Shown one piece after another: positions 10,888 through 29,503 of a stretch of DNA of 35,686 nt. Under the pieces are notes generated by a model. The model ran no database searches. It was not told where the DNA came from and was given only the letters and a program-made list of their open reading frames with translations. The first letter of the stretch is position 1. Each line of letters begins with the position of its first letter. Both the position numbers and the translations under genes were made by a program. Origin of the DNA: Gemmatimonadaceae bacterium (GTDB lineage Bacteria > Gemmatimonadota > Gemmatimonadetes > Gemmatimonadales > Gemmatimonadaceae); the NCBI GenBank assembly GCA_036496605.1, contig DASXKV010000027.1, positions 1 through 35,686 of the forward strand, read 5' to 3'.

Positions 10888-10891
10888 CCGA

Positions 10892-12532
10892 ATGAACGAC
10901 ACACCTAGCCCCCTCCCCGGACCGGATCTCACCAGGGGCGTTTCGCTATCGAGAATCCCCGACGGTTCGATCCTTCAAGGGCACGCACACGGCGAACCGG
11001 TCGTCCTTGCACGGCGCGGTGAGGAGTTTTTCGCGATCGGTGCTTTTTGCTCTCACTACGGCGCTCCACTCGCGGACGGCCTGGTCGTCGGTGACACCAT
11101 TCGTTGTCCTTGGCACCATGCGTGCTTCAACTTGCACACGGGCGAGGCCCTTCGCGCTCCAGCACTCAATGCCATCTCGTGCTGGTACGTCGAGCAGCGG
11201 GACGGCATTGTCTATGTAGGCGAGAGCCTGCCTCTTGCGGGACCACCACTGTCACCAGCCGCGTCTGGAACACCGGAATCAGTCGTGATCGTCGGTGGTG
11301 GTGCAGCGGGTAACGCGGCGGCGGAGATGCTCCGCAGGGAGGGCTACTCTGGCCGCATAACGATGCTGAGCGCGGACGCGTCTATACCTTGCGACCGACC
11401 GAATCTTTCCAAGGGGTATCTCGCCGGCGCAGCTCCGGCGGAATCAAATTCTCTTCGATCGCTCGAATTCTATCGAGAGCAACACATCGACTTGCGGTTG
11501 AATGCGCGTGTGGGGAGGATCGACACGGCGACCCACGAGGTCATTCTCACGGACGGCTCTCGCCATCCGTATGATGCGCTGCTTCTCGCGACCGGCGCTG
11601 AGCCCGTGCGCCTCGATGTCCCAGGCAGCGATCTACCGCATGTGCACTACCTGCGCACGCTCGCCGAGGGCGAGGCTCTGCTCTCCAAGGCCTTGGTCTC
11701 GCAGCAAGCAGTGGTGATCGGCGCGAGCTTCATCGGCCTCGAGGTAACGGCATCGCTTCGGGCCCGGAATATCGCCGTCCATGTGGTCGCTCCGGGCACC
11801 GTGCCGATGGAAAGGATTCTCGGAGCGGACGTCGGGAAATTCATCCGCCGACTGCATGAACGGAACGGCGTGACATTCCATTTCGGCACCGCAGTTGCCT
11901 CGATTGACGAGCGAGGCGTCACGTTGAAGACGGGAGAACGTCTCGCAGCCGATTTGGTCGTCGTGGGCATCGGCGTCCGGCCGTCGATTTCCCTGGCCGA
12001 AGAGGCCGGACTCGCCATCGATCGGGGCATCGTCGTGGACGAGCACCTGGAGACCAGCACACCAGGGATTTTCGCGGCCGGTGACATCGCACGCTGGCCG
12101 GATCCGCTCACCGGCGAACGGATCCGAGTGGAGCATTGGGTGGTGGCCGAGCGCCAAGGACAAACTGCAGCCCGTAACATCGTTGGGCGACCAGAGCAGT
12201 TCGACGCCGTGCCGTTCTTCTGGACAGAGCAGTATGACTTCAGTCTTGCGTACGTTGGTCACGCCGAACGCTTTGACGAGGCCAAGCTCGACGGTCAACT
12301 CAACGCTGTCGCACAGGACTGCACGATTACCTATCGTCTCGGTGGCAGGAAGTTAGCTGTGGCCTTCGTTCACAGAGATCTGGAAGGCCTACGTGCCGAA
12401 GTCGAGTTCGAAATGGCAACGCGAGGCGAACATCATGAAGAAAAGATTCAAGGTCGGAGATCACGTGACGTGGAACTCAGAAGCGGGAGACGTCCGAGGG
12501 ACGATCATCAAAGTGCACATCAAGGATGTTGA
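10892..12532 (+). CDS. Rieske-domain FAD-dependent NAD(P)H oxidoreductase
   Basis: A fusion of a Rieske [2Fe-2S] domain (residues 1-115; ligands C53-x-H55 and C72-x2-H75 in CSHYGAPL and CPWHHACF) with a ferredoxin-reductase-like flavoprotein. The FAD-binding glycine motif is at about 133-140 (VIVGGGAAG), and a second NAD(P)H Rossmann motif is near 290 (VVIGASFIGLEV). The GIFAAGDIARW motif and a reductase C-terminal domain follow. It resembles AIF-like/rubredoxin-reductase proteins that pass electrons from NAD(P)H. The ATG at 10892 follows AAGGTG. The last 35 or so residues read out of frame across the downstream DUF2945 gene and are Arg-rich, so the natural stop near FEMATRG has probably been lost. 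The electron acceptor is unknown. Confidence 0.88.
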   Translation: MNDTPSPLPGPDLTRGVSLSRIPDGSILQGHAHGEPVVLARRGEEFFAIGAFCSHYGAPLADGLVVGDTIRCPWHHACFNLHTGEALRAPALNAISCWYVEQRDGIVYVGESLPLAGPPLSPAASGTPESVVIVGGGAAGNAAAEMLRREGYSGRITMLSADASIPCDRPNLSKGYLAGAAPAESNSLRSLEFYREQHIDLRLNARVGRIDTATHEVILTDGSRHPYDALLLATGAEPVRLDVPGSDLPHVHYLRTLAEGEALLSKALVSQQAVVIGASFIGLEVTASLRARNIAVHVVAPGTVPMERILGADVGKFIRRLHERNGVTFHFGTAVASIDERGVTLKTGERLAADLVVVGIGVRPSISLAEEAGLAIDRGIVVDEHLETSTPGIFAAGDIARWPDPLTGERIRVEHWVVAERQGQTAARNIVGRPEQFDAVPFFWTEQYDFSLAYVGHAERFDEAKLDGQLNAVAQDCTITYRLGGRKLAVAFVHRDLEGLRAEVEFEMATRGEHHEEKIQGRRSRDVELRSGRRPRDDHQSAHQGC

Positions 12533-12650
12533 CTACAAAGGCCACACGCACCATGCAAGCAACGATGAACCGCAGTATGAGATCAAGAGCGACACGACTG
12601 ACCACATCGCCATGCACAAAGGCGCGGCTCTCAAAAGGACAAAAGGCTGA
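12435..12650 (+). CDS. DUF2945 (HVA1/Tudor-like) small protein
   Basis: A 71-residue protein beginning MKKRFKVGDHVTWNSEAGDV, the signature of the DUF2945 / hypervirulence-associated Tudor-like family. The conserved core (VRGTIIKVHIKDVDYKGHT, then YEIKSDTTDHIAMHKGAAL) is complete. These small basic beta-barrel proteins often accompany stress and DNA-repair genes; their biochemical role is not established. The start overlaps the end of the Rieske/FAD reading frame by 98 bases, which suggests the upstream gene has lost its proper stop rather than true nesting. It converges with gapA, with 6 bases between the stops. Confidence 0.88.
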   Translation: MKKRFKVGDHVTWNSEAGDVRGTIIKVHIKDVDYKGHTHHASNDEPQYEIKSDTTDHIAMHKGAALKRTKG

Positions 12651-14154: not shown

Positions 14155-15396
14155 ATGTCGTTGCCAATCGTCGTGCAGCTTCCATCCACACAGGAGCGCC
14201 TCAAGCAGCTCGTGACAGCCACCTCGGCGCTCATCACAGAGGTGTCCCTCCACGGTGTGCTTCAGCGCGCGGTGCAAGTCTCGGCACAAGTCATCGGGAC
14301 ACGCTACGCGGCCATCGGTGTTCTCGCGTCTGATGGGCGGACGCTGGAGCACTTCACGACCTACGGCGTCGACTCCGAGCTGGCGGCTAGGATCGGTGCG
14401 CCGCCGCGTGGCCACGGCATCCTCGGTCTCGTGATTCGAGACGGGAAACCGATCCGGCTGCCGGATCTGACCAAACATCCCGATTCCCTTGGATTTCCCC
14501 CACACCACCCACCGATGCGTTCGTTCCTCGGCGTTCCGATTCTCGGAAACCGTGGTGTGTTAGGGAACCTTTACCTTGCCGAGAAGACCGACGGTGAGAC
14601 GTTCACCGAGGAGGATGAGGACATCGCGACTCTGCTGGCGGCAAATACAGCTGCGGCAGTCGAGAATGCCCGCCATCACGAGGAGAGTGCTCGCCTGCTC
14701 GCGGAAGTGCAGCAGCTTCACCGCACACGTGAACGGTTCTTCGCCATGGTGAATCACGAGCTCCGAAACGCATTGGCTGCGGTCTACGGTTGGTCCGAGA
14801 GGCTCGTACGCAAAAAGGATCCGGCGACGGTTCCTCGCGCGGCTCTCGAGGTGCTGGACTCGGCACAACAGGCGGTGGCCCTCATCAATGATCTGCTGGA
14901 CCTGAGTCGGTTGGATGAGGATCGCCTAAAGCCAATCATTCGGGCGGAAGAGCCGACATCCCTTGCCGATCGGTCCTTGCGTCGTGTGACTCCCGCTGCT
15001 GAGCTAAAGCACGTCACGCTCCAACTTGTTTCCGCCCCCAACCTTCCAAGTTGCGCGACCGACGCCAGCCGCGTTGAGCAAATTCTCATCAATTTGCTCG
15101 CCAATGCTATTAGGTATGCGCCTGAGGAGAGCGTGGTCCGTGTTAGTGTCTCCGCAGGTGACCGTCGCATTGTCTACCGAGTCGAGGATGAAGGCCCCGG
15201 CGTGCCCTCTGATGATGTGGAACGAATCTTTGATATCTATGTGACGAAACCGGGCGAGGAGAGCCGCGGACTTGGCTTAGGTCTGCCGCTCTCCCGGCGA
15301 CTCGCCCAATTACTCGGCGGCGAACTCTACGCTGTGTCGCGGTCCGGGAAGGGAGGCTGCTTCGTTCTGGAGGTTCCTGCGGCCACGGTAAAATGA
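14155..15396 (+). CDS. GAF-domain sensor histidine kinase
   Basis: A 413-residue soluble sensor kinase. The GAF domain (about 20-175) includes GILGLVIRDGKPIRLPDL and the FLGVPI motif. HisKA follows with the phospho-acceptor in FFAMVNHELRNALA (His about 201). HATPase motifs are present: N box LLANAIRYAP, G1 DEGPGVP, G2 RGLGLGLPLS. GAF kinases of this type (compare DosS/NreB-like sensors) can bind haem, iron-sulphur or small molecules, but I see no diagnostic ligand residues. The OmpR-type regulator begins 57 bases downstream, so the pair is a likely two-component system. Both have TGAAG boxes. Confidence 0.92.
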   Translation: MSLPIVVQLPSTQERLKQLVTATSALITEVSLHGVLQRAVQVSAQVIGTRYAAIGVLASDGRTLEHFTTYGVDSELAARIGAPPRGHGILGLVIRDGKPIRLPDLTKHPDSLGFPPHHPPMRSFLGVPILGNRGVLGNLYLAEKTDGETFTEEDEDIATLLAANTAAAVENARHHEESARLLAEVQQLHRTRERFFAMVNHELRNALAAVYGWSERLVRKKDPATVPRAALEVLDSAQQAVALINDLLDLSRLDEDRLKPIIRAEEPTSLADRSLRRVTPAAELKHVTLQLVSAPNLPSCATDASRVEQILINLLANAIRYAPEESVVRVSVSAGDRRIVYRVEDEGPGVPSDDVERIFDIYVTKPGEESRGLGLGLPLSRRLAQLLGGELYAVSRSGKGGCFVLEVPAATVK

Positions 15397-15452: not shown

Positions 15453-16154
15453 ATGAGAGTCCTTGTTGTCGAAGACGACCGGAAAGTTGCCGGGTTTATC
15501 GAGCAGGGGCTGCGCGAAGAGGGATACGCCGTGGACGTCGCTCGAGACGGCGAGGAGGCGACGATGTTCGCGCACGTCAATGAATACGACGTCATCCTCC
15601 TCGATGTCGTGCTTCCGAAGAAGAACGGCTTTCAAGTCGCAATGGAGCTCAGGTCCGAAGGGAGGAACACCCCAATCCTGATGCTCACATCGCGCGATGC
15701 CGTCGAGGATATCGTGCGCGGGCTAGACGCGGGCGCTGATGATTACCTGGCGAAGCCGTTTCCGTTCGACGAGCTGCTCGCTCGTATCAGGGCGCTTGTC
15801 CGGCGCGGTGGTGCCGAGCGCCTTGATGTGCTGCGCTATGACGTGGTCGCCCTGGATCGGCTGCGCCACGTCGCGACAGCGAATGATCGGCCACTCGATC
15901 TCACGCCGAAGGAGTTTCAGCTCCTCGAGTATTTCCTCCAGCACCCCGAGGAAGTGGTGCGTCGTACGACGCTTCTCGAGAAAGTATGGGACATGCGGTT
16001 CGATCCCGAGAGCAACGTGATCGATGTCCATATCAAGAACCTGCGCCGGAAGCTCGCTGAAGCGACGGGCGAGCCCTTGCTCGCGAATATTCGGGGCGTG
16101 GGGTTCAGCCTCCGTCGCCGCCGCGACTCGAAGGAGGTCCGAGTAACGCCATGA
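15453..16154 (+). CDS. OmpR-family response regulator
   Basis: A 233-residue two-domain regulator. The receiver domain (1-118) has the acidic pocket EDD (8-10), the phospho-acceptor in ILLDVVLPKKNG (Asp 51), the conserved Thr/Ser (MLTSRD) and the lysine in DDYLAKPF. The OmpR winged helix (about 130-225) shows LTPKEFQLLEYFLQHPEEVV and SNVIDVHIKNLRRKL. It belongs to the CusR/CopR/QseB-like group by overall sequence. It is encoded between its probable kinase and the PAS-LuxR gene, whose start overlaps its stop (ATGA). Candidate binding sites are the TGAAG-N6-TGAAG boxes, one just upstream. Confidence 0.95.
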   Translation: MRVLVVEDDRKVAGFIEQGLREEGYAVDVARDGEEATMFAHVNEYDVILLDVVLPKKNGFQVAMELRSEGRNTPILMLTSRDAVEDIVRGLDAGADDYLAKPFPFDELLARIRALVRRGGAERLDVLRYDVVALDRLRHVATANDRPLDLTPKEFQLLEYFLQHPEEVVRRTTLLEKVWDMRFDPESNVIDVHIKNLRRKLAEATGEPLLANIRGVGFSLRRRRDSKEVRVTP

Positions 16155-16825
16155 CTACGTCAATCCTCGAAGCAGAGCTGTTCGCCCTGCTCGAGCAGAC
16201 CGCCGATGCCGCCTACACCGTCACCGACGGCGGCGAGATCTGCTCCTGGAACGGGGCAGCTGAGGAGTTGTTCGGTTACTCCGCGAGCGAGGTAGCACGC
16301 CGTAACGTCGACGAGGTGCTCGAAGCACGCGACGCGTTAGGTACCCGGGCGCTCGCCGGGGGCTTCGACGCACCGACTCGTCGTACCAATGGAACGTCCC
16401 CTGGTATCGAGAACTTCGACCTCGAAGTACGTGTGCGCGATGGCCGCCGAATCTGGGTGAACGTTTCGACGATCGTCTTCGACAACCATCGAACGGGCCG
16501 CAGGCTCTTTGTGCGTTTGGCGCACGACATCAGCCAGCGCCGCCGCAAGGAGGAGTTGCTCAACCAGGTGATGGAGATCGCCCAGAGCCTCGTTAGGCTC
16601 ACCGACGATCCCTCCGAGCACGCACCAGTCGAGCCGCTTTCCGAGCAGGAGCGGCGCATTCTCAAGCTCTTCTCGGACGGCGGCAACCCCGCGGCCATTG
16701 CGGACCGACTGAGTATCTCCGCCCAAACGCTCCGCAACCATCTTCATCATATCAACCGCAAGCTCCGAACACACAACCGCCTCGAGGCAGTGACCCACGC
16801 GCAAAAGCGGGGGCTTATCGAATAG
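16151..16825 (+). CDS. PAS-domain LuxR-type transcriptional regulator
   Basis: A 224-residue protein with an N-terminal PAS domain (about 8-130, with CSWNGAAEELFGYSASEV and a terminal FVRLAHDISQRRRKE). The C-terminal LuxR/GerE helix-turn-helix (about 160-224) shows LSEQERRILKLFSDGGNPAAIADRL in two parts and QTLRNHLHHINRKL. There is no receiver domain, so it probably responds directly to a signal or ligand through PAS. It overlaps the response regulator stop by four bases, so the two are co-translated. It is a candidate controller of the GTAC-marked genes downstream, but that is only inference from proximity. Confidence 0.9.
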   Translation: MTTSILEAELFALLEQTADAAYTVTDGGEICSWNGAAEELFGYSASEVARRNVDEVLEARDALGTRALAGGFDAPTRRTNGTSPGIENFDLEVRVRDGRRIWVNVSTIVFDNHRTGRRLFVRLAHDISQRRRKEELLNQVMEIAQSLVRLTDDPSEHAPVEPLSEQERRILKLFSDGGNPAAIADRLSISAQTLRNHLHHINRKLRTHNRLEAVTHAQKRGLIE

Positions 16826-18586: not shown

Positions 18587-18627
18587 GGACGCATGTACTT
18601 CTGTACCTAACGAACGCTTCATTGCCG
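18587..18627 (+). promoter_or_regulatory. GTAC-type promoter, degenerate copy (before cupredoxin unit)
   Basis: GGAC (18587-18590), 17 bases, TAAC (18608-18611), 7 bases, TCATTGCCG (18619-18627). The spacing equals that of the four good copies, and the 3' part (GAACGCTTCATTGCCG) closely resembles copy 4, but each core block has a mismatch. It lies 77 bases before the secreted-protein gene at 18705. Confidence 0.45.
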
Positions 18628-18704
18628 GAGACACGCTGCCGGCGCATCCCTTCGCCCGTAACGCACAGAGTCAAACGAACCCACGATCCAGGAAAGGTCG
18701 AGCC

Positions 18705-19124
18705 ATGAAACGTCTCGCACTCATTGCCCTCACCGTCGGCGCCGGGCTAATGCTCGCGCGACCAAGCACGGCGGCAGCACAGAGCAGCGCCCCGCCCGGC
18801 GGCGCGTACAAGCTGGTCAGCTCGCTCGTCGCGCTTCCGGATTTCGTGCCGGGACTTGGAACTCTGTACGTAGATCCCGCCACGCTGCCCGCCGGACCCT
18901 TTCTCGCCTATGACCACCAAGGGAGGCTAGTGAGCTCGATCTACATGATCCCGCTCAAGGACATGAACAGCCACAAGGCGTTCAGTGGTCTGAAGGTCGC
19001 GCACGAGCGCGTCGACCATGTCGACATGCTCTATAACGCCGGCCATCCGGGCGTCGCGGAGCCGCACTACCACGTGATCCTGTGGTATGTGTCGCCGCAG
19101 CGCGCGTCCCAGCTCGCGAAGTGA
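18705..19124 (+). CDS. secreted TTHB210-like (DUF5602-type) protein
   Basis: A 139-residue protein with a standard Sec signal peptide (MKRLALIALTVGAGLMLARP, cleavage near AAAQS). The mature part has a conserved histidine cluster, NSHKAFSGLKVAHERVDHVD and HPGVAEPHYHVILWYV, suggesting metal binding in the periplasm. I associate this with the TTHB210/DUF5602 family from memory; the match is tentative. The gene ends one base before the start of a Tat-exported cupredoxin, so the two form an operon, probably in copper or redox chemistry. Confidence 0.75.
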   Translation: MKRLALIALTVGAGLMLARPSTAAAQSSAPPGGAYKLVSSLVALPDFVPGLGTLYVDPATLPAGPFLAYDHQGRLVSSIYMIPLKDMNSHKAFSGLKVAHERVDHVDMLYNAGHPGVAEPHYHVILWYVSPQRASQLAK

Positions 19125-19125
19125 C

Positions 19126-19692
19126 ATGCAGTCACGTCGCGACTTCCTGAAAGCCGGCGGGATGGCTCTCGCCGGCTTTCAGCTCCTGCCTAACGACTTG
19201 TTTCGCTTGCCGAGCGCTGTCGAAATAGTCGAGATGCGCAGCGACATCGCTGGCGCTCACGTCTGGTTCGAGCCGATCGGACTGTACGTGGATCCTGGTA
19301 CGACCGTGCGTTGGATCGCGCGGGAGAATGTGCACACGGCGACGGCGTATCACCCGCGGAACAACCATCACTCGCTCCGAATCCCCGAGCGTGCGGTGCC
19401 CTGGGACTCCGGATTCCTGGTGCATACCGGCGATCACTTCGAGGTGACGCTCACGGTACCCGGCGTCTACGACTACTTCTGCGCGCCGCATGAAGCGGCT
19501 GGAATGATAGGCCGGATCGTCGTGGGCAGATCGGAAGGGCCGGGTGCCCGGCCCTTCGACTACTGGGTTGGCAGGCCGGGAACCGACGGCTGGCTCCATG
19601 TCCCCGACGCCGCGCGCAAGAACTTTCCGAGCGTCGCCCGCATCCGCGCCGAGCGCCGCGTACATCCAGCCAGGGGAGCGACGGCTCGTTAG
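19126..19692 (+). CDS. Tat-exported cupredoxin (plastocyanin-like)
   Basis: A 188-residue blue copper protein. The N-terminus MQSRRDFLKAGGMALAG is a Tat signal. The type 1 copper ligands are visible as H70 (NVHTATAYH), C119, H122 and M127 (FCAPHEAAGM), the plastocyanin/halocyanin arrangement. It would carry single electrons in the periplasm and could feed the copper nitrite reductase encoded at 28.3 kb, though that link is inference. The ATG at 19126 overlaps the upstream TGA. The stop (TAG) lies inside a CGTTAGGC word that also supplies the stop of the convergent DUF488 gene. Confidence 0.88.
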   Translation: MQSRRDFLKAGGMALAGFQLLPNDLFRLPSAVEIVEMRSDIAGAHVWFEPIGLYVDPGTTVRWIARENVHTATAYHPRNNHHSLRIPERAVPWDSGFLVHTGDHFEVTLTVPGVYDYFCAPHEAAGMIGRIVVGRSEGPGARPFDYWVGRPGTDGWLHVPDAARKNFPSVARIRAERRVHPARGATAR

Positions 19693-19694
19693 GC
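19687..19694. repeat. CGTTAGGC word acting as stop for two convergent genes
   Basis: One copy of the dispersed 8-base word provides TAG (19690-19692) for the plus-strand cupredoxin and TAA (19691-19689) for the minus-strand DUF488 gene, so the two genes overlap by four bases. Other copies are listed in the findings. Confidence 0.85.
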
Positions 19695-20111
19695 CGCTGA
19701 TGACGGTCGTCGCCGCGCGGCATGCGGCCGGTGGCGTCGAGCCGCGCGCGTCCCGCTCGCGCGGTTCATGCGCGCACGCAGAACAGCCGCTAGCACAACC
19801 GCATCGTTATGCACCTCGTCACGCGCACCGAAGACCAGAGTGACGCGCCGGCGCGACGCCAGCGCGGCGATCTTTCGCAACAGGTCGCCTCGCTCACGCA
19901 GCTCCCGTTTGTAGCGCCGCTGGAACTCGGGCCACTTTTTCGCATCGTGTCCGAACCATCGCCGCAGCGGCGTGGATGGCGCGATCTCTTTCATCCATTC
20001 GTCGATCGCCAAACGTCGCTTACTCAGCCCACGGGGCCAGAGCCGGTCGACCAGGATGCGACGGCCATCCGCGCTCGATGCCGGCTCGTACGCGCGCTTC
20101 AGCTTCAGCAT
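19689..20111 (-). CDS. DUF488 family protein
   Basis: A 140-residue DUF488 protein with the typical start LKRAYEPASSADGRRILVDR and LWPRGLSKRRLAIDEWMKEI. The middle motif LRRWFGHDAKKWPEFQRRY is conserved, as is GARDEVHNDAVVL near the end. The family is widespread and poorly characterised, often listed near stress genes. The last 25 residues are Arg/Ala-rich and less conserved. It faces the cupredoxin gene and is divergent from glgA, with the GTAC-type promoter in the gap. Confidence 0.9.
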   Translation of the reverse strand: MLKLKRAYEPASSADGRRILVDRLWPRGLSKRRLAIDEWMKEIAPSTPLRRWFGHDAKKWPEFQRRYKRELRERGDLLRKIAALASRRRVTLVFGARDEVHNDAVVLAAVLRARMNRASGTRAARRHRPHAARRRPSSAA

Positions 20112-20225
20112 GTCGCATCTCCGCGCATGTGGTTGTTGCTCCTTCGTGTGTTAGTCGCATTGGTGAATATCTGATCGGGGTCTGCATGTGCACGAGTTTA
20201 GCAGTCGAATGGCAGAGTGTCGTTG

Positions 20226-20266
20226 GTACGGACGTCGCGGCCGCCAGTACAGTCGCCTCATTGTCG
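20226..20266 (+). promoter_or_regulatory. GTAC-type promoter, copy 2 (before glgA)
   Basis: GTAC (20226-20229), 17 bases, GTAC (20247-20250), 7 bases, TCATTGTCG (20258-20266). It lies 88 bases before the glycogen synthase start, in the divergent region with DUF488. Confidence 0.75.
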
Positions 20267-20353
20267 TGTGAGGCGCCAATCAGTGAGCTTGTGATCCCGA
20301 ACCGATTGCCGGCTCGGAAGCATTGTCACCATGTTGCCGAGGATTAGAAAGTT

Positions 20354-21937
20354 ATGACTACCGCAGATCTCAAGTCTGCGTTGCCACGGCTCGGGTTCCG
20401 CGCGACACCGCGACGCGTCCGCAGTGTGCGACCGAACCACTTCTCGAGCGCCGATCGCCTCGAAGTCATCCACGTCGCCGCGGAGTGCTGGCCGTTCGCT
20501 CGCACGGGTGGACTGGGCGAGGCGGTCGCCGGTCTCGCGGCATTTCAAGCAAGGCGTGGCGTCGACGTATCTGTAGTCATGCCGCTTTACCGCACGATCA
20601 GGGAAGCAGCGATCGAGATGCAGACTGTGGGAGCGCCGTTCATTGTCCCAGTTGGCGCCCGCCTCGAGGAGGTACAGCTCTACCGGACGCCACTGCAGTT
20701 GGGCAAGCCACGGATGTTCTTCATTGATCACACGTCCTACTTCGATCGCGATGGCATCTACGGCGAAGGAGGCGCTGACTACCCGGACAACGCCCGGCGG
20801 TTCGCGGTGTTCAGTCTCGCGGCGCTGTACGCCATACCACGCATCGCTCCTGGCGCGAACATCGTGCACGCGCACGACTGGCACACGGCGCTCGCCATTC
20901 CCGCCTTACGAGCGATCCCCACGTCGGCCGAGGATGGCCGTCACCCACTGAGGGTGTTCTCAGTGCACAACGCGGGCTTTCAAGGAAGCTTTCCCCTGGA
21001 AACGATCACCGACGTGGGATTCGACGGCGAATTGTACGACTCCCGACTATTCGAATCGAATGGCCGTATGAATTTCCTCAAGAGCGCATTGACGCACTGT
21101 GATCTTGCGGTGGCGGTGAGTCCGACTCATGCCCACGAGCTTCGCACAGCAGAAGGCGGGTTTGGGCTGCACGAGACGTTCGCGGCGCTTAGCGACCGTC
21201 TGGCCGGCGTGACCAACGGTATCGATTCCGACGTTTGGAATCCGGCGACTGATAAGTCGCTCCCCGCGCGATACACTCGTGGGGATTTCGCGGGCAAAGC
21301 AGCGTGCAAGGCAGCATTGCAGCGATCGTGCGGCCTGAAAGAACGGCCCTCCTCCCTGCTTTTCGCGATGTGCACTCGTCTCGCGCAGCAGAAGGGCTTC
21401 GACCTCGTTCTCGGAGCCGACCTCTTGAGTCGTACTGATGCACAGTTCGTGTTTCTTGGCCAGGGCGAGGCAAGATACGAGAAGGCGCTCGCGCATCTCG
21501 CAGCTGCCGCTCCTGAACGTGTGGCCCTGCGGCTGGACTTCAGCGATGATCTGGAGCACCGAGTGCTCGCCGGCGCGGATGCTCTGCTCATGCCGTCGTT
21601 CTACGAGCCCTGTGGGCTCACCCAGATGCGCGCGCAGCGCTACGGCACGATTCCGATCGCGCGTCGAGTCGGTGGCCTCGCGGACACCATCGAGGATGGT
21701 GCGAGCGGGTTCCTGTTTAACGACTACTCCTGCGAGGCGTTCCTGGCGAGCCTGCACCGAACTGCCGAGCGGTTCGCCGACGCCGGCGGCTGGAGAGAGA
21801 TGATGCAGCGAGCAATGAGCCGGGACTTCGGCTGGCCCCGGGTGGCGGAAGAGTACATCGCGCTGTACAGGAGCGCTGACGGGACGTTGACGCAAGCGCG
21901 ATCGGAAAACTGCGGGAGCTCACGTGTTGAAGCCTGA
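20354..21937 (+). CDS. glgA: glycogen synthase (GT5 family)
   Basis: Glycogen/starch synthase that extends alpha-1,4-glucan from ADP- or UDP-glucose, 527 residues. A 35-residue N-terminal extension precedes the GT5 catalytic domain (HVAAECWPFARTGGLGEAV, a variant of the usual KTGGLGD nucleotide-binding loop). Other conserved parts are ANIVHAHDWHTAL, VFSVHNAGFQG, GVTNGIDSDVWNP and the GT1-like C-terminal segment MPSFYEPCGLTQMRAQRYGT. It starts behind the GTAC-type promoter, and the GH15 glucoamylase gene follows after 6 bases, so storage-glucan synthesis and breakdown share a transcript. No glgC or glgB is in the window. Confidence 0.95.
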   Translation: MTTADLKSALPRLGFRATPRRVRSVRPNHFSSADRLEVIHVAAECWPFARTGGLGEAVAGLAAFQARRGVDVSVVMPLYRTIREAAIEMQTVGAPFIVPVGARLEEVQLYRTPLQLGKPRMFFIDHTSYFDRDGIYGEGGADYPDNARRFAVFSLAALYAIPRIAPGANIVHAHDWHTALAIPALRAIPTSAEDGRHPLRVFSVHNAGFQGSFPLETITDVGFDGELYDSRLFESNGRMNFLKSALTHCDLAVAVSPTHAHELRTAEGGFGLHETFAALSDRLAGVTNGIDSDVWNPATDKSLPARYTRGDFAGKAACKAALQRSCGLKERPSSLLFAMCTRLAQQKGFDLVLGADLLSRTDAQFVFLGQGEARYEKALAHLAAAAPERVALRLDFSDDLEHRVLAGADALLMPSFYEPCGLTQMRAQRYGTIPIARRVGGLADTIEDGASGFLFNDYSCEAFLASLHRTAERFADAGGWREMMQRAMSRDFGWPRVAEEYIALYRSADGTLTQARSENCGSSRVEA

Positions 21938-21943
21938 CTTATC

Positions 21944-24355
21944 GTGACAATTCTGCTTTCCCAGCGAAAAGCATTCGGCCACCCCGGTATCGCGCCCCGC
22001 TGGACACGCAGTGCGAAGGACGCCGTCGGGACAGCTTATGCCGATTCGAGCCGTGTGTGGTTCACCGTCGCGCGCGGCATTCTGAACGAGGTGTATTTCC
22101 CAACGGTCGATCGACCGCAGATCCGCGATCTTCAATATCTGATCACGGACGGCACAACGTTCTTCCATGACGAACGACGGCACTTAACGAGCAAGGTCGA
22201 GTATCTCGACCCTCATGGCCTGGGCGTGCAAATCACCAGCATGGATCCCGATAGTCGTTATCAGCTCCAGAAGCAGATCATCACCGACCCGCATCAGCCG
22301 TGCGTCCTGATTCATACGCGGCTGGAGACTCAACCGCGTTTTGCAGGGAAGCTCAGGATGTTCGCGCTTCTCGCGCCGCATCTCGAAGGCGGCGGAGCGG
22401 CGAACAGCGGGTACGTTGCCGTGCGGGCGGGGCGTGAGACGCTCGTCGCCAATAAGGGCCGGACATGGCTCGCGCTGGGCGCGTCTCTTCCGTTCCTTCA
22501 TCGATCGTGCGGCTACGTCGGTCGCTCGGATGGGTGGACCGATCTTGCGGATAACTATCAATTCGACTGGGAGTTCGACGCCGCCGAGGATGGTAACATC
22601 GCTTTGACGGGGGAACTGGATCTCACGAAAGGCCACGAATTCGTGCTTGGACTCGCCTTCGGCGAGACGCTCCATCACGCCGTAGCCACGCTGTCCCAAT
22701 CGCTTGGCTTTGCCTTCGCCGACCACAAGCGGCGGTTCGTACGACAGTGGACTCGCGCCTTCCGAGGGCTGGCGCCACTCGCGGAAGTATCCGAGGACGG
22801 CGGCCGGCTCTATCGCGCGAGTCATAACTTGCTACTCGCCCACGAGGACAAGACGTATCCCGGCGCAACCATCGCGTCGCTCTCGATTCCGTGGGGCGAA
22901 GTGAGGGGGGACGAGGATCTCGGCGGCTACCATCTCGTCTGGACGCGCGACATGGTGAAGAGTGCAATCGGTCTTCTCGCCGCGGGAAACACCGAGCAAC
23001 CGTTGCAGGCGCTCATCTATCTGGTCTGCGCGCAGCGCTCCGACGGAGGGTTCTATCAGAACTTCTGGATCGACGGAGAACCTTACTGGCAGGGCATTCA
23101 GCTCGACGCCGTCGCGCTTCCCATCATCCTGGCGTGGCGACTGCATCAGCTGCGGGCACTTCGGAACTTTGACCCCTATGCGATGGTGCTACGCGCGTCA
23201 GGCTATCTCATTCGCGAGGGCCCCGTGACGCCCCAGGAGCGTTGGGAGGAGAACAGCGGGTATTCGCCGTCCACCCTCGCGGCCAACATCGCCGCTCTGA
23301 CGTGCGCGGCGTGGTTCGCGAGCGACCGCGGCGATGATACGACTGCGCAGTTCATTCAAGCGTACGCCGACTTTCTCGAGCGGCATGTCGAGGCATGGAC
23401 GGTCACCACAGAGGGCTCGCTGCTCCCGGGCGTCAGCCGGCACTATATCCGTATCCATCCGGTTGATCCGGGTGACTCGGAGCCTAACGAGAACCCAAAC
23501 GCCGGGCTGCTTGCGCTGCGCAACCGGCCACCCGGCGCCACTTTCGCATTTCCGGCGAAAGATATTGTGGATGCCGGCTTTCTCGACCTGGTGCGCTACG
23601 GGATCCGCGCGGCGGATGACCCACTCATCGAGGATTCGCTGCGCGTGATTGACGCCGTCCTCAAGATCGACACGCCGCTTGGTCCGTGTTGGCATCGGTA
23701 CAACAATGACGGATACGGCGAGCGTCAAGACGGAGCACCGTTCAGCGGTTTTGGGAAAGGCCGCGCCTGGCCGTTGCTCACGGCCGAGCGAGGACACTAC
23801 GAGCTCGCCGCTGGACGCGATGTACGACCTTTCATCAGAACGATGGAGGCCTTCGCAGGAGACACAGGCTTGCTTCCCGAACAAGTCTGGGACGAACCGA
23901 ACCGACCGGAGTTCTACATGAACCTCGGACGGCCGACCGGCTCCGCGATGCCTCTGGTATGGGCGCACGCCGAGTACATCAAGCTATTGCGTTCCACAAA
24001 AGACGGTGCGGTCTACGACCGAATTCCCTCCGTGGTCGCACGATATCAGGAAGCAGATCCGGTGGGGCGAGCACGGTACGAAATGTGGAAGTTCAATCGA
24101 CGCCCTCGCACAATCCAACCTGGCGGTACACTGCGCGTTCTCGCCGGCGCCGCATTCAAATTGCGCTGGACCGCCAACGAGTGGCGAGACATGTGCGACT
24201 CGCCATCCGTGGCGATCGGCGTCGGCGTCGATTTTGTCGACATCCCGGTTCCGACGAACCAGACGGCCCCAGTCAGGTTCACCTTCTTCTGGACGGGGCC
24301 GGGGCGTTGGGAAGGCAAGGATTTCTCAGTCGCGATCGACACGGCGTCGGCCTAA
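21944..24355 (+). CDS. GH15 glucoamylase / glucodextranase-like glucan hydrolase
   Basis: An 803-residue glycoside hydrolase of family 15, releasing glucose from alpha-glucans. An N-terminal beta-sandwich (about 1-270) precedes the (alpha/alpha)6 barrel (about 290-690), with LVWTRDMVKSAIGLLAAGNT and the catalytic-acid segment ERWEENSGYSPSTLAANIAA; the C-terminal part is a short beta domain. The start is GTG at 21944, six bases after the glgA stop. No signal peptide is visible, so the enzyme is probably cytoplasmic and acts on internal glycogen. The TAA stop lies within a GCCTAACG word. Confidence 0.92.
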   Translation: MTILLSQRKAFGHPGIAPRWTRSAKDAVGTAYADSSRVWFTVARGILNEVYFPTVDRPQIRDLQYLITDGTTFFHDERRHLTSKVEYLDPHGLGVQITSMDPDSRYQLQKQIITDPHQPCVLIHTRLETQPRFAGKLRMFALLAPHLEGGGAANSGYVAVRAGRETLVANKGRTWLALGASLPFLHRSCGYVGRSDGWTDLADNYQFDWEFDAAEDGNIALTGELDLTKGHEFVLGLAFGETLHHAVATLSQSLGFAFADHKRRFVRQWTRAFRGLAPLAEVSEDGGRLYRASHNLLLAHEDKTYPGATIASLSIPWGEVRGDEDLGGYHLVWTRDMVKSAIGLLAAGNTEQPLQALIYLVCAQRSDGGFYQNFWIDGEPYWQGIQLDAVALPIILAWRLHQLRALRNFDPYAMVLRASGYLIREGPVTPQERWEENSGYSPSTLAANIAALTCAAWFASDRGDDTTAQFIQAYADFLERHVEAWTVTTEGSLLPGVSRHYIRIHPVDPGDSEPNENPNAGLLALRNRPPGATFAFPAKDIVDAGFLDLVRYGIRAADDPLIEDSLRVIDAVLKIDTPLGPCWHRYNNDGYGERQDGAPFSGFGKGRAWPLLTAERGHYELAAGRDVRPFIRTMEAFAGDTGLLPEQVWDEPNRPEFYMNLGRPTGSAMPLVWAHAEYIKLLRSTKDGAVYDRIPSVVARYQEADPVGRARYEMWKFNRRPRTIQPGGTLRVLAGAAFKLRWTANEWRDMCDSPSVAIGVGVDFVDIPVPTNQTAPVRFTFFWTGPGRWEGKDFSVAIDTASA

Positions 24356-24523
24356 CGACGCGGCGTCATCACGCTGCGGATGGCCCGACCGTTGAATCGT
24401 CGCGCGCGCGGTGGCCGGAAAAAGGGTGACCCAGTGAACCGACTTCTCGCGGTTGCGCCGGGTCGTGAAAGCTTTCGTAATCATCGCGGCAAGGGCGGCA
24501 AATGGCGTTAGGTAACCGATCAT
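24326..24523 (-). CDS. possible small protein with perfect Shine-Dalgarno
   Basis: A 65-codon frame beginning MIGYLTPFAALAAMITKAFT, preceded by AGGAGG six bases before the ATG. The N-terminal 20 residues could form one short membrane helix; the remainder is basic. The 3' end overlaps the GH15 gene on the other strand. No family recognised. The ribosome-binding site is the main argument for it. Confidence 0.35.
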   Translation of the reverse strand: MIGYLTPFAALAAMITKAFTTRRNREKSVHWVTLFPATARATIQRSGHPQRDDAASLGRRRVDRD

Positions 24524-24647
24524 GACGCATCCTCCTGGGTGTTTGGCGAGTCTATCGACTCGTGGCGCGTGACGGCCGATCGGCGAAATGCTCTGCGACT
24601 GGCCACCATGTTCCGCACTCCATCGACCGCGCGAGGTTCTGTCGCTG

Positions 24648-24688
24648 GTACCGCCGTCGACGGCGATGGTACATGCGTTTCATTGTCG
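24648..24688 (+). promoter_or_regulatory. GTAC-type promoter, copy 3 (before mmgE/prpD)
   Basis: GTAC (24648-24651), 17 bases, GTAC (24669-24672), 7 bases, TCATTGTCG (24680-24688). It lies 55 bases before the ATG at 24743. The gap between the GH15 stop and this gene (24356-24742) otherwise holds only the possible small minus-strand gene. Confidence 0.75.
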
Positions 24689-24742
24689 GCGTGCGTGCCA
24701 AGGGAGCACCTTCCCTCATCGATACAACACGAGGTAGCGCGC

Positions 24743-26137
24743 ATGACGGTTCTCGAGGAGATGGCGGAATTCATCGTTCGCTCGACTCCGGAGAGTGTGT
24801 TGCCGGCGCGCCGCGTGGACCTCAAGATCCGGATCCTCGACTCGTTAGGCTGTGCCATCGGCGCGCTCGGTTGCGATCCGGTGCGCCATGTTCGCCAGTT
24901 CGTCACGGACTTTGCGAGCGATGGTTCCTGTACGCTCGTTGGCGGTGGCCGGAGTGCCCCGGATCGAGCGACGCTCTTGAACGGCGCTCTCGTCCGGTAC
25001 CTCGATTTCAATGACAGCTATCTCGCCTCGCGCGAGACCTGTCACCCATCCGACAACTTGGCCGCCGTACTCGCGGCTGCGGAATTGGCGAAGACGGACG
25101 GCGGCACCCTGCTCACCGCGCTGGCGGTCGCGTATCAGGTGCAGTGCCGGTTGAGCGACTTGGCGCCGGTGCGTGACCGCGGCTTCGACCATACCACGCA
25201 TCTGGCGTACTCCGTCGCCGCCGGTGTCTCGCGCGCGTTGTCGCTCGACGTCCGCCATACAGCAAACGCAGTCGCCATCAGCGGTACCGCGCTCAACGCA
25301 TTGCGAGTGACGCGCACCGGAACGCTTTCACATTGGAAGGGACTGGCGGCGCCCTTTGCAGCATCAGCTGCCATGCAGGCCGCGCTCCTCGCGCAACGGG
25401 GCGTCACCGGTCCTGCCGAGGTATTTGAAGGCAACAAGGGCTTCATGCAGTCCGTTACCGGACCATTCGCTATCGACTGGGGCCGGGAGGGTCTCGATCG
25501 CGTTGAACGCACGATAATCAAGCGTTACAACGCCGAGGTCCACTCGCAGACCGCCATCGAAGCGGCTCTCGAGCTTCAACAAGCTCACGGATTCGAAGCG
25601 ACCGATATCGAAAAAGTCGAGGTCGACGTCTTCGACGTTGCTCACCGCATCATTGGTGGCGGAGAAGAGGGCGACAAGACGCTCGTGTTCAGCAAGGAGG
25701 ACGCGGACCATAGCCTTCCCTACTTGATCGCCGTTGCCCTCCTCGATCACATGGTGATGCCCGCGCAGTTCGCGCCTCGGCGCTTGCAGCGCGCTGACGT
25801 GCAGTCGCTCCTCTGTCGCGTCGTCGTGCAGCCTCTCGCCGAGTTCTCCGCCCGCTTTCCGGAGGAGATGCCGTCGCGCGTGACGGTGACGCTGACCGAC
25901 GGGCGCCTCCTCACACGCACGTTGTCCGACTACCCCGGCTTCCGCACGCGACCGCAGTCCTGGGAGGATGCTGTCTCGAAGTTCACGGCACTTGCCGAAC
26001 CTAATGCTTCGCAAACTGTGCGCGCCGACATCGTTGCCGCGGTGCATCACCTGGATCACATCACGGTCGGCGAGCTCACCAGCCCACTGAGCCATCTGAA
26101 GATGCCGACGCGTCGGACGGCGCTCCAGTCGGCTTGA
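24743..26137 (+). CDS. MmgE/PrpD family protein
   Basis: A 464-residue member of the MmgE/PrpD family (2-methylcitrate dehydratase, cis-aconitate decarboxylase and relatives). Conserved parts are LDSLGCAIGALG, RATLLNGALVRYLDFNDSYL, SHWKGLAAPFAASAAMQAAL and RYNAEVHSQTAIEAA. The ATG at 24743 (MTVLEEMAEF) with GAGG upstream fits family length; the longer open frame from 24539 would run through the promoter. Without prpC or prpB nearby, the propionate 2-methylcitrate cycle is not supported. The ComA-like gene follows after 26 bases. The substrate is probably a small tricarboxylate or sulphonated acid, which is inference. Confidence 0.9.
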   Translation: MTVLEEMAEFIVRSTPESVLPARRVDLKIRILDSLGCAIGALGCDPVRHVRQFVTDFASDGSCTLVGGGRSAPDRATLLNGALVRYLDFNDSYLASRETCHPSDNLAAVLAAAELAKTDGGTLLTALAVAYQVQCRLSDLAPVRDRGFDHTTHLAYSVAAGVSRALSLDVRHTANAVAISGTALNALRVTRTGTLSHWKGLAAPFAASAAMQAALLAQRGVTGPAEVFEGNKGFMQSVTGPFAIDWGREGLDRVERTIIKRYNAEVHSQTAIEAALELQQAHGFEATDIEKVEVDVFDVAHRIIGGGEEGDKTLVFSKEDADHSLPYLIAVALLDHMVMPAQFAPRRLQRADVQSLLCRVVVQPLAEFSARFPEEMPSRVTVTLTDGRLLTRTLSDYPGFRTRPQSWEDAVSKFTALAEPNASQTVRADIVAAVHHLDHITVGELTSPLSHLKMPTRRTALQSA

Positions 26138-26163
26138 GGTGAGCACACTGAGGAGGACGCAAC

Positions 26164-27006
26164 ATGGACACGATCACTCAAGCTCGGCGAACCGAGGCCT
26201 TCGAGTTCTTGCAGCGGAACGACCGGCAACCGAAACCTCGCACTCGCGGGATCACGGAGATCCGGGGTCCGTATTATACGCCGTTAGGCAAGCGCGCACT
26301 GCAGGACATTCTCGAAACGATGGGCACGTGGGTGGATACGTTGAAATTCGCTGGCGGCTCATTCACGCTGATGCCCAAATCGGCGCTCGAGGAGCTGATT
26401 GCGCTGTGCCACGAACATGGAGTTCTCGTGTCGACCGGCGGCTTCATCGAGCGTGTCCTCACCCAGGGCAGTGGCGCCGTTGCGCAGTACATCGACATCT
26501 GTCGCGCAATCGGGTTCGACATCATCGAGCTCTCGAGCGGCTTCATCACCATTCCAGTTGATGACTGGCTTCGACTGATGGACCGCGTACAGAAAGCTGG
26601 GCTCAAAGCGAAGCCGGAGGTTGGAATTCAATTTGGTGCCGGAGGTGCGACGGCAGCTGATGAGCTGGTGGCCGAAGGAACGCACGACGTGGGCTGGATG
26701 ATCCAACTCGCGCGTCGCTTCCTGGAGGCTGGTGCTCACCAGATCATGATCGAATCAGAGGGGATCACCGAGAATGTTCGGTCATGGCGGACCGACGTGC
26801 CGGCACGGCTCATCGAGGCACTCGGGCTCGAGCGGATCATGTTCGAGGCGGCAGACCCGGAAGTCTTTGCCTGGTACGTCAAACACTACGGTCCGGAAGT
26901 GAATCTGTTCGTCGATCACAGCCAGATCGTGCAGCTCGAGGCGTTGCGTCAGGGAATCTGGGGCACGGCCAGCCTGTGGGGACGTGTGGTGACGTACCAG
27001 GGCTGA
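26164..27006 (+). CDS. ComA-like phosphosulfolactate synthase
   Basis: A 280-residue TIM-barrel protein of the ComA family, whose known member joins sulphite to phosphoenolpyruvate to give (2R)-phospho-3-sulfolactate (coenzyme M and sulfolactate routes). Recognisable parts are RGITEIRGPYYTPLGK, VDTLKFAGGSFTLMPKSAL, IIELSSGFITIP and HQIMIESEGITENV. GAGGAGG precedes the ATG. No comB or comC is nearby and the organism is unlikely to make coenzyme M, so the product may enter a sulfolactate or other C3-sulphonate pathway, or the protein may have a different activity. It shares the GTAC-promoter unit with MmgE/PrpD. Confidence 0.88.
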   Translation: MDTITQARRTEAFEFLQRNDRQPKPRTRGITEIRGPYYTPLGKRALQDILETMGTWVDTLKFAGGSFTLMPKSALEELIALCHEHGVLVSTGGFIERVLTQGSGAVAQYIDICRAIGFDIIELSSGFITIPVDDWLRLMDRVQKAGLKAKPEVGIQFGAGGATAADELVAEGTHDVGWMIQLARRFLEAGAHQIMIESEGITENVRSWRTDVPARLIEALGLERIMFEAADPEVFAWYVKHYGPEVNLFVDHSQIVQLEALRQGIWGTASLWGRVVTYQG

Positions 27007-27037
27007 GCAGCGTGAACTAGCCGCGGCACAGAGCGAG

Positions 27038-27078
27038 GTACGCGCGTTTCTTCGCTCGGTACGAATGCTTCATTGTCG
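27038..27078 (+). promoter_or_regulatory. GTAC-type promoter, copy 4 (before the nitrite reductase unit)
   Basis: GTAC (27038-27041), 17 bases, GTAC (27059-27062), 7 bases, TCATTGTCG (27070-27078). It lies 74 bases before the membrane-protein gene that leads to the nitrite reductase. Confidence 0.75.
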
Positions 27079-27152
27079 CCGCTGTCCGCCCCGCCTAACC
27101 ATGCTCTTGTGGCGCGTACGCACCGAAACGCCACATGCATGAGGAGGCTCAG

Positions 27153-27668
27153 ATGACACATGTCAACGCAACAGATGATCTAACTCGCCGGCCTCGCGAC
27201 ACAGCCGAGGCGCAGCCATTGGCCACAATTACCCTGACTCACAAGCACAACTCATTGCTGGAGGGAACCGTTCTTGGGTTAGTTGTAGCAACCTGTATAT
27301 GGGTGTGGCTCGCCGCGATCGATGGGATCGCTGGCGAACCGTTTCTCACGTTCAACGTCCTGGGCGGCATCGCTGGCTTTACGGTGATGCATTACTTGCT
27401 CAACGTGGCATATGGCGTGGCCATACTGTCGATCATCCACACCGCGGGGCGTACGCCGAGTGCAATCTTTGCGGTGGGCTTCGGATTTCTCATGCTGGAA
27501 TTCGCCTTCGCGCTCGTGACGGCCGCATTCTCGAGTGGCCGGCTCGGTGAGCTCGCCTGGGTCCGTCTGTTCGGCGGAAGTGTGATCGGCGCGGTGATCG
27601 CGATCGTCATTGTCACGCGACGGCATTCCCTCGTGGCGCTCCTCCATCAAGCCGAAGAGGAAACATGA
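27153..27668 (+). CDS. four-helix membrane protein, nitrite reductase unit
   Basis: A 171-residue protein with a soluble N-terminal 40 residues and four hydrophobic helices (about 43-62, 72-93, 103-127 and 138-157). The ATG at 27153 is preferred over 27135 because GAGGAGG (27139-27145) precedes it at the right distance. I do not recognise the family. It heads a cluster with a NorB-like helix bundle and a copper nitrite reductase, so a role in their assembly or electron supply is plausible. Confidence 0.75.
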   Translation: MTHVNATDDLTRRPRDTAEAQPLATITLTHKHNSLLEGTVLGLVVATCIWVWLAAIDGIAGEPFLTFNVLGGIAGFTVMHYLLNVAYGVAILSIIHTAGRTPSAIFAVGFGFLMLEFAFALVTAAFSSGRLGELAWVRLFGGSVIGAVIAIVIVTRRHSLVALLHQAEEET

Positions 27669-27732
27669 CGATCGCAACAACGCTCGATCGGGCTACGATC
27701 AACACTCGTTCGTACTTACTGCGCACTCTCGC

Positions 27733-28188
27733 ATGCATACGCTCGTTAGGCGCTATATCAAGACTGGCATAGGCTTTCTCGGCGTCGGTCTTGGCATTGG
27801 CGTTTGGCTGCTCGTCAGGCGAGAGTTGTATGGCGTGTATGCCAGTCCCTTCGAGACGAGCGCGCACACGCACGCGCTTCTTGTCGGCTTCGTCATGGAA
27901 ATGATCCTTGGCGTAGCCCTTTGGCTCTTCCCGCGACCCGAAAAGGGCGATCTGCGTTACAAGCCACGACTCGCCGACGCAGCCTACTGGCTACTCACCA
28001 TTGGTACAGCCGCACGAGTCATCGGTGAGCTCACGCGACCTTTCTTTACGGCGATTTGGCTTCGGTGGCTGATTGTGATTTGCGGAGTCGCGCAGACAGC
28101 GGGGCTGCTGCTTTTCTTTTTCACGATGTGGCCACGCATCCGACCGCTAGGCAGCGCCGTACGCGAGCGGGCGGGTGAGCGCTTTTGA
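27733..28188 (+). CDS. short haem-copper-oxidase-like (NorB/CcoN N-terminal type) membrane protein
   Basis: About 151 residues, four helices. The segment FETSAHTHALLVGFVMEMIL then GVALWLFPRP resembles the second-helix region of NorB/cbb3 subunit I, where a histidine binds haem, but the protein is a quarter of full subunit length. The start is uncertain. The ATG at 27733 (MHTLVRRYIKTG) lacks a good ribosome-binding site, while an ATG at 27665 with GAGG upstream opens another frame that stops after 35 codons; a one-base shift near 27745 would fuse them. The next gene is the nitrite reductase. Confidence 0.65.
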   Translation: MHTLVRRYIKTGIGFLGVGLGIGVWLLVRRELYGVYASPFETSAHTHALLVGFVMEMILGVALWLFPRPEKGDLRYKPRLADAAYWLLTIGTAARVIGELTRPFFTAIWLRWLIVICGVAQTAGLLLFFFTMWPRIRPLGSAVRERAGERF

Positions 28189-28303
28189 GCGGTCGCGGTG
28201 CTCAATGTGTGTATGGCGTCGCGATTGCCATCAGCGAGTTGCGATCGCGCTCGCGGGACCATTTTCTGCACTACAAGCCGGAACAATCGAGGAAAACACT
28301 CTC

Positions 28304-29503
28304 ATGCTCTCTGTTCCCGAATCTCCGCAGCACGCGCAATTCCCATCGGCCAAAGCAGGGCACGCAACAAGTAGCGAGCGTACTGATGGCGACGCCACGG
28401 ATACACCAACGAGCCGCCGTGGATTTCTCGCCCGACTTTCCGCGCTCGGGCTCGTGATACCCGGAGTCGGTGCCGCCCTCACTAGTTGCTCGCGCGGCGC
28501 GCCTAACGCCTCCGACACTGAGCAGTACGGCAGTGGGCGTGGTCAGTCTGCGGCGACTCATCAGCTGCCCGTGCGCGGGGTCCGCAATCCCGATAGCCGG
28601 CTCGACACGGTGCACGGCGCGGAGCACCGCACGACGACGACAGCGCCGAGTGCAACCAACGCGACGTACCAGCGATACGATCCGACACTTCCGCCGCTGC
28701 CAAAGGAGCGCACGCAGCACATTCACTGGCGAGCGCAGGAACAACCCGTACGGATCTCGTCGGATGTCGTCGTTGCGGCGTGGACATTCGAGCGAAGTCT
28801 GCCAGGACCGATCGTGCGATGCCGCGTCGGCGATACGATCGAGTTCACGCTCACGAACGACCACGACGTACCGCACTCGATGGACTTTCATGCGGCGCAG
28901 ATCGACCCGAAGACGGCGTTCCGGTCTGTGCTCAAAGGACAGTCGGTGTCGTACACGTTCCAACCTCGTTATGCGGGCGCCTTCTGCTATCACTGCGGCA
29001 GCTCACCGGTCCTGATGCACATCGGGTCGGGAATGGTGGGGGCGATCATCGTCGATCCGCCTGCGCGGTTGCCGCCGGCGAAAGAGTTCGTGCTCGTGCA
29101 GAACGAGTTCTATCTCGGAGCGGCCACGAACGGTGTGCATCCATTCGACTACACAAAGATGCTCAGCGCACTGCCCGACTATGTCGCCTTCAACGGCCGT
29201 CCCGGACAGTATCAGTCCGAACCAATCCGCGTGAAGCGGGGCGATCGAGTGCGCTTCTATATCGTCGATGCCGGTCCGACGGTACCATGCGCCTTTCACG
29301 TCGTCGGCGCGCAGTTCGACACCGTCTACCTTGGTGCACCACCGTCGAACGCCATTCGCGGTGTGCAAACCTTCAATGTTCCGGCCGGCGGTGGGATGAT
29401 CTTCGAGCTGGTCGCGAACGTGGCCGGGGAATTTCCGTTCGTGAACCACCAGTTTGGCCACGGCCAAAAAGGAGCAATCGGGGTGCTCGTCGTGGACGAG
29501 TAA
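28304..29503 (+). CDS. nirK: copper-containing nitrite reductase (NirK-like), lipoprotein
   Basis: A 399-residue two-cupredoxin-domain enzyme reducing nitrite to NO in the periplasm. The N-terminus combines a Tat-like motif (SRRGFLARL, 38-46) with a lipobox (LTSC, Cys 62), so it is probably membrane-anchored. Type 1 copper ligands: H191, C231, H239, M244. Type 2 copper ligands: H196, H230 and H382. Catalytic pair: D194 (HSMDFH) and H332 (CAFHVVG). All expected residues are present. The open frame extends to an ATG at 28175 overlapping the previous gene, but the ATG at 28304 with GAGG upstream gives a sensible export signal. A related two-domain multicopper oxidase is the main alternative. Confidence 0.85.
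   Translation: MLSVPESPQHAQFPSAKAGHATSSERTDGDATDTPTSRRGFLARLSALGLVIPGVGAALTSCSRGAPNASDTEQYGSGRGQSAATHQLPVRGVRNPDSRLDTVHGAEHRTTTTAPSATNATYQRYDPTLPPLPKERTQHIHWRAQEQPVRISSDVVVAAWTFERSLPGPIVRCRVGDTIEFTLTNDHDVPHSMDFHAAQIDPKTAFRSVLKGQSVSYTFQPRYAGAFCYHCGSSPVLMHIGSGMVGAIIVDPPARLPPAKEFVLVQNEFYLGAATNGVHPFDYTKMLSALPDYVAFNGRPGQYQSEPIRVKRGDRVRFYIVDAGPTVPCAFHVVGAQFDTVYLGAPPSNAIRGVQTFNVPAGGGMIFELVANVAGEFPFVNHQFGHGQKGAIGVLVVDE

Follow-up and report, generated by a model that had tools for sequence, protein, structure and literature searches.

The 35,686-nucleotide stretch analyzed here (the window; contig DASXKV010000027.1 of assembly GCA_036496605.1, from a soil bacterium of the Gemmatimonadaceae) carries a gene for a one-component regulator of the PAS-LuxR type (16151..16825, + strand; Pfam PAS plus a GerE/LuxR helix-turn-helix [HTH] domain), together with five copies of a promoter box for which this protein is the proposed activator. 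Four copies match GTAC-N17-GTAC-N6-YTCATTGTCG at 18 of 18 positions (9847..9887, 20226..20266, 24648..24688, and 27038..27078), all on the + strand and each directly before a gene. The fifth (18587..18627, + strand) matches at 14 of 18 positions and scores 24.8 bits; its second half is degraded, with CCTAACGA replacing GGTACGA and the second GTAC lost (TAAC), whereas the corresponding gene in relatives has its box intact. The best score reached by chance in 20 simulations of the window was 15. In pattern searches of the whole 5.97-Mb genome, the exact motif occurred at the four window sites only (reversed control, 0), and a generalized motif with one mismatch allowed added to these a single weak match elsewhere (C3:95859) that had no matrix support. 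Because exact matches are confined to these four sites, the box is specific to the cluster rather than a genome-wide promoter, and the claim of a shared promoter, made in a first-pass annotation of this DNA, holds. A first guess at the spacing, GTAC-N15-GTAC, gave 29 genome matches against 40 in the control and was dropped as meaningless.

The genes behind the boxes all lie on the + strand. The box at 9847 precedes an AlkA-like DNA glycosylase (9938..10887), a fusion of a Rieske ferredoxin with a flavin adenine dinucleotide (FAD) reductase (10823..12532, start uncertain; Pfam Rieske and Pyr_redox_2) that has a homolog in one relative's locus, and a small Hva1-tudor protein (12435..12650; PF11160, 69 bits) with homologs in three. 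Following the degraded box are a TTHB210-like exported protein (18705..19124, below the Pfam cut-off), which is the first gene behind the box in nine loci and on which no paper was found in the open-access literature, and a plastocyanin-like cupredoxin with a twin-arginine translocation (Tat)-like signal (19126..19692; PF00127). Glycogen synthase (GlgA, 20354..21937; PF08323) and a GH15 glucoamylase/glucodextranase (21944..24355; PF09137 and PF00723) stand behind the box at 20226, and GH15 is found behind a box in an Acidobacteriota locus as well. Next come an MmgE/PrpD family protein (24743..26137; PF03972 and PF19305), also behind the box in other loci, including one from Acidobacteriota, and a member of the ComA-like phosphosulfolactate synthase family (26164..27006; PF02679, with the NCBIfam archaeal ComA model below cut-off). 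We place the MmgE start at 24743 and not 24539 because the box at 24648 falls between the two.

The last box, at 27038, precedes a membrane protein with no family match (27135..27668) that follows boxes in two other loci, a weakly COX1-like membrane protein (27610..28188; PF00115 below cut-off), and a copper nitrite reductase of the two-domain NirK type (28175..29503). The best PDB matches of the latter are nitrite reductases (E=1e-59) of the 3wi9/3wkq kind, and its type 1 and type 2 copper-ligand and catalytic Asp/His motifs (PHSMDFH, YHC, MHIGSGM, FHVVG, and NHQF) align with those of 3wi9; against TIGR02376 it scores 165.5 bits, below the cut-off of 296.3. Family or structure matches confirmed most of the genes named in the first-pass annotation, namely, the glycogen synthase, GH15, MmgE/PrpD, ComA-like, NirK-like, and cupredoxin proteins, the GAF kinase, the OmpR-type regulator, and PAS-LuxR. 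Other descriptions stood in part. In what had been called a cupredoxin pair, the second member is plastocyanin-like, but the first is the TTHB210-like protein; as for the membrane partners assigned to NirK, the subthreshold COX1 match of the second is the only family hit of either. The repair glycosylase does lie behind an exact box, but gene and box (9847-10887) fall outside the interval from 18587 to 29503 in which it had been placed, and the gene is frameshifted.

Orthologs of PAS-LuxR occur in 15 other genomes of the 296 Gemmatimonadota sampled; most are 67-76% identical, one is 43% identical, and one is a fragment at a contig end. All of their neighborhoods were scanned, and a box adjoins the gene in nearly all of them, its first half usually reading GGAC or TGAT rather than GTAC. 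A strict pattern built from the relatives found the box in 16 genomes, 15 of them with PAS-LuxR, and had no control matches. Across the 296 genomes, 15 have both box and gene, one has each alone, and 279 have neither (Fisher p=4e-23). Both exceptions are explicable: in the box-only genome, G282, two boxes lie amid the usual target genes on a 110-kb contig that ends about 3 kb away, and the gene-only genome, G144, has a box that the strict pattern missed (27.2 bits, locus L069). A matrix made from the four window sites alone retrieved 22 sites, spread over 14 of the 18 other Gemmatimonadota loci (reversed control, 0). Target genes in genomes lacking PAS-LuxR have no box (six loci); the TTHB210-like or ComA genes of G178, G204, G209, and G052, which lack the regulator, are box-free. 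The earlier proposal of a single, locally clustered regulon around its regulator is therefore borne out by its conservation in related genomes, and the boxes, their layout, their co-occurrence with the gene, and their conserved targets, all of which can be read from the DNA, argue strongly for a regulon with a local regulator.

The association is not limited to Gemmatimonadota. When GTDB genomes were scanned with the PAS-LuxR alignment, 70 loci were recovered: about 20 from Gemmatimonadota, most of the others from Acidobacteriota, and one labelled Thermoanaerobaculia. The Acidobacteriota proteins are 46-52% identical, and some genomes encode several such paralogs. Among the aligned Gemmatimonadota proteins, the HTH recognition helix, QTLRNHLH, varies little or not at all; it was itself one of the peptide patterns used in the two-phylum search. 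A matrix derived from Gemmatimonadota sites alone found about 95 sites of at least 13 bits over 0.99 Mb in the 70 loci, with none in reversed controls, and already recovers the Acidobacteriota boxes; the matrix from the four window sites found 18 sites in Acidobacteriota versus 2 in the control. Among Acidobacteriota, 16 of the 20 genomes known to carry the gene have the strict box, versus 1 of a further 198 sampled from the phylum without regard to PAS-LuxR content. A box lies within 500 bp of PAS-LuxR in 41 of the 64 loci with a usable gene, and the flanks are stereotyped, 33 boxes being upstream and divergent and 26 downstream and codirectional. Because the promoter signature tracks this gene across the genomes of two phyla, PAS-LuxR is the probable switch, and we consider it likely that the five boxes are the binding sites and promoters of this one activator.

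PAS-LuxR is scattered over 13 of 119 genera and its cargo changes, a pattern that could also arise if the whole region were a mobile block in which the box, with some other role, merely travels along with PAS-LuxR. The TTHB210-like gene is present in 10 of 16 box genomes and in 4 genomes without strict box or PAS-LuxR, and ComA is present in 3 of the 16 and in two genomes outside that set. PAS-LuxR, however, stays the constant partner while this cargo changes, and in two carrier genomes (G105 and G228) there are distant boxes on other contigs, so that a mobile block with an unrelated box seems most improbable. No close PAS-LuxR was found on plasmids in PLSDB, where identity was about 31% or less among the matches listed.

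In the window, PAS-LuxR belongs to an apparent operon that begins with a GAF histidine kinase (14155..15396, + strand; Pfam GAF, HisKA, and HATPase) and continues with an OmpR-type response regulator (15453..16154, + strand; Pfam Response_reg and Trans_reg_C) whose gene overlaps that of PAS-LuxR by 4 bp. The first-pass annotation had counted this pair among the possible controllers of the marked promoters, and one could suppose that the GTAC boxes are binding sites of the OmpR-type regulator (with its kinase) and that PAS-LuxR is a passenger. OmpR proteins often bind tandem direct repeats, and besides the overlap within one operon, orthologs of the kinase (71% identical) and of the OmpR-type regulator (78%) stand beside cluster genes (TTHB210-like, pyrroloquinoline quinone [PQQ], cupredoxin, and DUF488) in genome G200. 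Yet G200 has no PAS-LuxR and no box site even at 5 bits, and in the loci of other box-bearing relatives, no ortholog of either gene adjoins PAS-LuxR, whose box travels without them. Neither gene predicts the box, and because G200 keeps both without PAS-LuxR or box, they do not explain it; OmpR was rejected as the box binder on these grounds, and we regard that arrangement as exceedingly improbable. As the three genes form one apparent operon, the two-component system may instead act upstream of PAS-LuxR, with the pair controlling its transcription in this genome.

The box itself is a 41-bp composite, in which two boxes of about 10 bp lie 21 bp apart and are followed by YYATTG at a sigma70-like spacing. 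In an information profile of 107 distinct sites, the boxes resolve into two related elements, KACRNNYGT and GTACRAAYG, forming a 21-bp repeat; both are roughly palindromic, with centers two helical turns apart. After them comes YYATTG, and 17 bp past its -35 hexamer, information rises again at A-A-N-N-T. We read this pattern as two putative dimer sites, the second abutting a -35 (the TTG of YYATTG), followed by a poor sigma70 -10. The element centers would lie near about -64 and -43, counted from the proposed -10, positions that are tentative because this -10 is weak and, among the window's own boxes, little conserved. In one Acidobacteriota locus (L119:4551), the second element with its ATTG (GTACAAACGGTTCATTGC) is doubled in tandem.

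Fixed spacing, a conserved ATTG, and the small number of sites could also describe a promoter for an alternative sigma factor, either extracytoplasmic function (ECF) or sigma54, rather than an activator site combined with sigma70. Two elements 21 bp apart and the TTG-N17 spacing fit an activator with sigma70, however, and site presence follows PAS-LuxR, although co-occurring sigma factors were not searched for. Sigma54 was rejected by eye because its -12 GC is missing (TC in all five window sites), and dependence on an alternative sigma factor of either kind appears very unlikely. The direction of the effect is a separate matter. PAS-LuxR probably turns the marked genes on, but it might instead repress them; the LuxR class does include repressors, while VqmA, EL222, and PimM, known PAS/LOV-LuxR proteins, are activators. 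The boxes, however, sit upstream of and abut the -35 instead of covering the -10 or +1, and a weak -10 suits activation, making repression distinctly unlikely. Under activation, each element would be occupied by a LuxR-type dimer, and the two dimers, at about -64 and -43, would bring in RNA polymerase in the manner of DosR/DevR.

The resemblance to DosR-type regulons noted in the first-pass annotation is real in promoter layout and in clustering but does not extend to membership. DevR/DosR promoters contain close-packed sites, the proximal one overlapping the -35 (PMC3029386), and in our 107-site profile, compared with that work, the proximal element of the tandem boxes likewise abuts the -35. 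OsdR of Streptomyces governs a clustered regulon that includes universal stress protein (USP), nitrate reductase/nitrate respiration, and Crp-like genes (PMC5069765). PAS-LuxR shares with DosR and OsdR this clustering of a regulator with stress genes, the packed tandem sites, and a C-terminal GerE-type HTH, whose profile matches the DosR DNA-binding domain (1zlj/1zlk). Among the DosR contact residues Lys179, Lys182, and Asn183 (PMC4082495), the last is aligned by eye with an Asn in PAS-LuxR. Unlike DosR and OsdR, PAS-LuxR has a PAS domain in place of the receiver, with no Response_reg match in Pfam and no phosphorylatable Asp, and it has no conserved DosS/DosT-like kinase partner, a different second box, and a different gene set. 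Because both receiver and conserved kinase are missing, it is not a DosR/DevR member. The Dev box core is GAC-N4-GTC, to which the first box is similar in 22 of 107 sites (GAC-N4-GT).

Other PAS-containing regulators are closer in architecture. Pfam, the predicted structure (mean pLDDT, the predicted local distance difference test, 81; pTM, the predicted template modeling score, 0.57), and Foldseek all place an N-terminal PAS fold and a C-terminal LuxR HTH in one chain, the one-component layout of VqmA (Vibrio) and EL222 (Erythrobacter), which are among the best full-length Foldseek matches of the model. Sequence identity to these proteins is low, however, and DNA site and targets differ. The photoactive Cys of light-oxygen-voltage (LOV) domains is absent: at the NCRFLQ motif, the inspected alignment has RNIDEVL-like residues. 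PimM-type PAS-LuxR proteins of Streptomyces share domain order and name and recognize a different DNA site. They govern antibiotic clusters (PMC9774167). By sequence and by predicted fold, the PAS domain is closest to the heme sensors DosP and FixL, from which PAS-LuxR differs in not being part of a kinase or phosphodiesterase and in lacking the heme-ligand His; no conserved His occurs in residues 55-80 of the family, where the DosP alignment is gapped. With key residues absent, both a heme-PAS sensor of the DosP/FixL type and a LOV sensor were rejected. As there is no receiver domain, the PAS domain would sense its signal directly, and we judge PAS-LuxR to be a one-component, DosR-like activator with a local regulon. 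No description of such a regulator and box was found in searches of open-access papers on PAS-LuxR, Acidobacteria, Gemmatimonadota, or DosR.

What this activator would control can also be judged from the relatives, where target genes were re-called from each box after greedy choice of open reading frames (ORFs) had given spurious genes; among targets seen only once, some may nonetheless be incorrect ORFs. The largest group behind boxes elsewhere consists of nitrite reductase-cupredoxin fusions (n=17). Others include hemerythrins, NorB, USP, a CRP/FNR regulator, UDG glycosylase, peroxiredoxin, COX2-like and cytochrome b561/molybdopterin proteins, GH15, MmgE, CMD, and M50-CBS proteases. This set of electron-acceptor, nitrogen-oxide, reserve, and repair functions plausibly suits low oxygen or nitric oxide (NO)/nitrite, a reading to which we give roughly even chances. 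The low-oxygen theme of the first-pass annotation fits the conserved nitrite and NO reductases, hemerythrin, cupredoxin, USP, CRP/FNR, and glucoamylase genes, but the signal itself is something we can only infer. On a drop in oxygen or a rise in nitrogen oxides, PAS-LuxR would accordingly be expected to turn on nitrite and NO reduction, copper electron carriers, glycogen turnover, and repair. Several observations weigh against this picture: the proposed -10 is weak in the window, the second box element is only partly palindromic, the heme His of DosP has no counterpart in the PAS domain, no site of at least 16 bits is present in 11 of 64 loci (chiefly Acidobacteriota paralogs), and the MmgE, ComA, Hva1-tudor, and DUF488 targets give no pointer to oxygen or NO.

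For Gemmatimonadota and Acidobacteriota, both abundant soil phyla, searches of open-access papers turned up essentially no studies of the regulators of nitrite and NO reduction, and the present comparison supplies a named regulator, a precise predicted binding site, and a target list over tens of genomes. With these, metagenomes could be scored for the PAS-LuxR response from DNA alone, and the DosR dormancy switch would gain an independent comparison. It is possible, though we offer this tentatively, that the two phyla share a regulator-plus-box cassette in which PAS-LuxR, with no kinase partner, detects NO, nitrite, or redox state by means other than heme-His chemistry and directs a DosR-like program for anaerobic survival in dominant soil bacteria.

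Several neighboring genes deserve mention. The DUF488 gene (19689..20111, - strand) is not behind a box here but is a frequent neighbor of PAS-LuxR, in eight relative loci. The AlkA-like gene, followed by three-frame translation and with homologs in two relatives' loci, is frameshifted near 10490 (10480-10500), occupying two frames here and one frame in a homolog (L185); the frameshift may reflect genuine decay or a mistake in the assembly. Its name comes from sequence inspection and the first-pass call because neither half reaches a Pfam family. A transaldolase ORF (17183-18634, - strand) follows its 285-position profile no further than position 205, then passes into DUF2090, and is possibly frameshifted or rearranged. 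Near the cluster are also a tryptophanyl-tRNA synthetase gene (7060-8022, - strand), with homologs about 35% identical near the cluster in three other loci, and a histidine kinase gene (8112-9623, - strand) with no adjoining regulator, a homolog of which, 54% identical in the kinase part, lies beside box and PAS-LuxR in L069.

The window is also rich in an octamer, GCCTAACG (often GCCTAACGA), which occurs 18 times versus 0.5 expected, for example, at 4565, 7893, 9309, 16591, 19188, 24350, 28501, 32618, and 34393. Genome-wide, it occurs 3,411 times versus 408 in a reversed control. It is equally frequent on both strands and lies both within and between genes. Its 7-base core, CCTAACG, is absent from the five loci checked in relatives, and the octamer has the look of an iterated word peculiar to this genome, an uptake sequence for instance. 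This word occupies the place of the second GTAC in the degraded box at 18587 (18605-18615).

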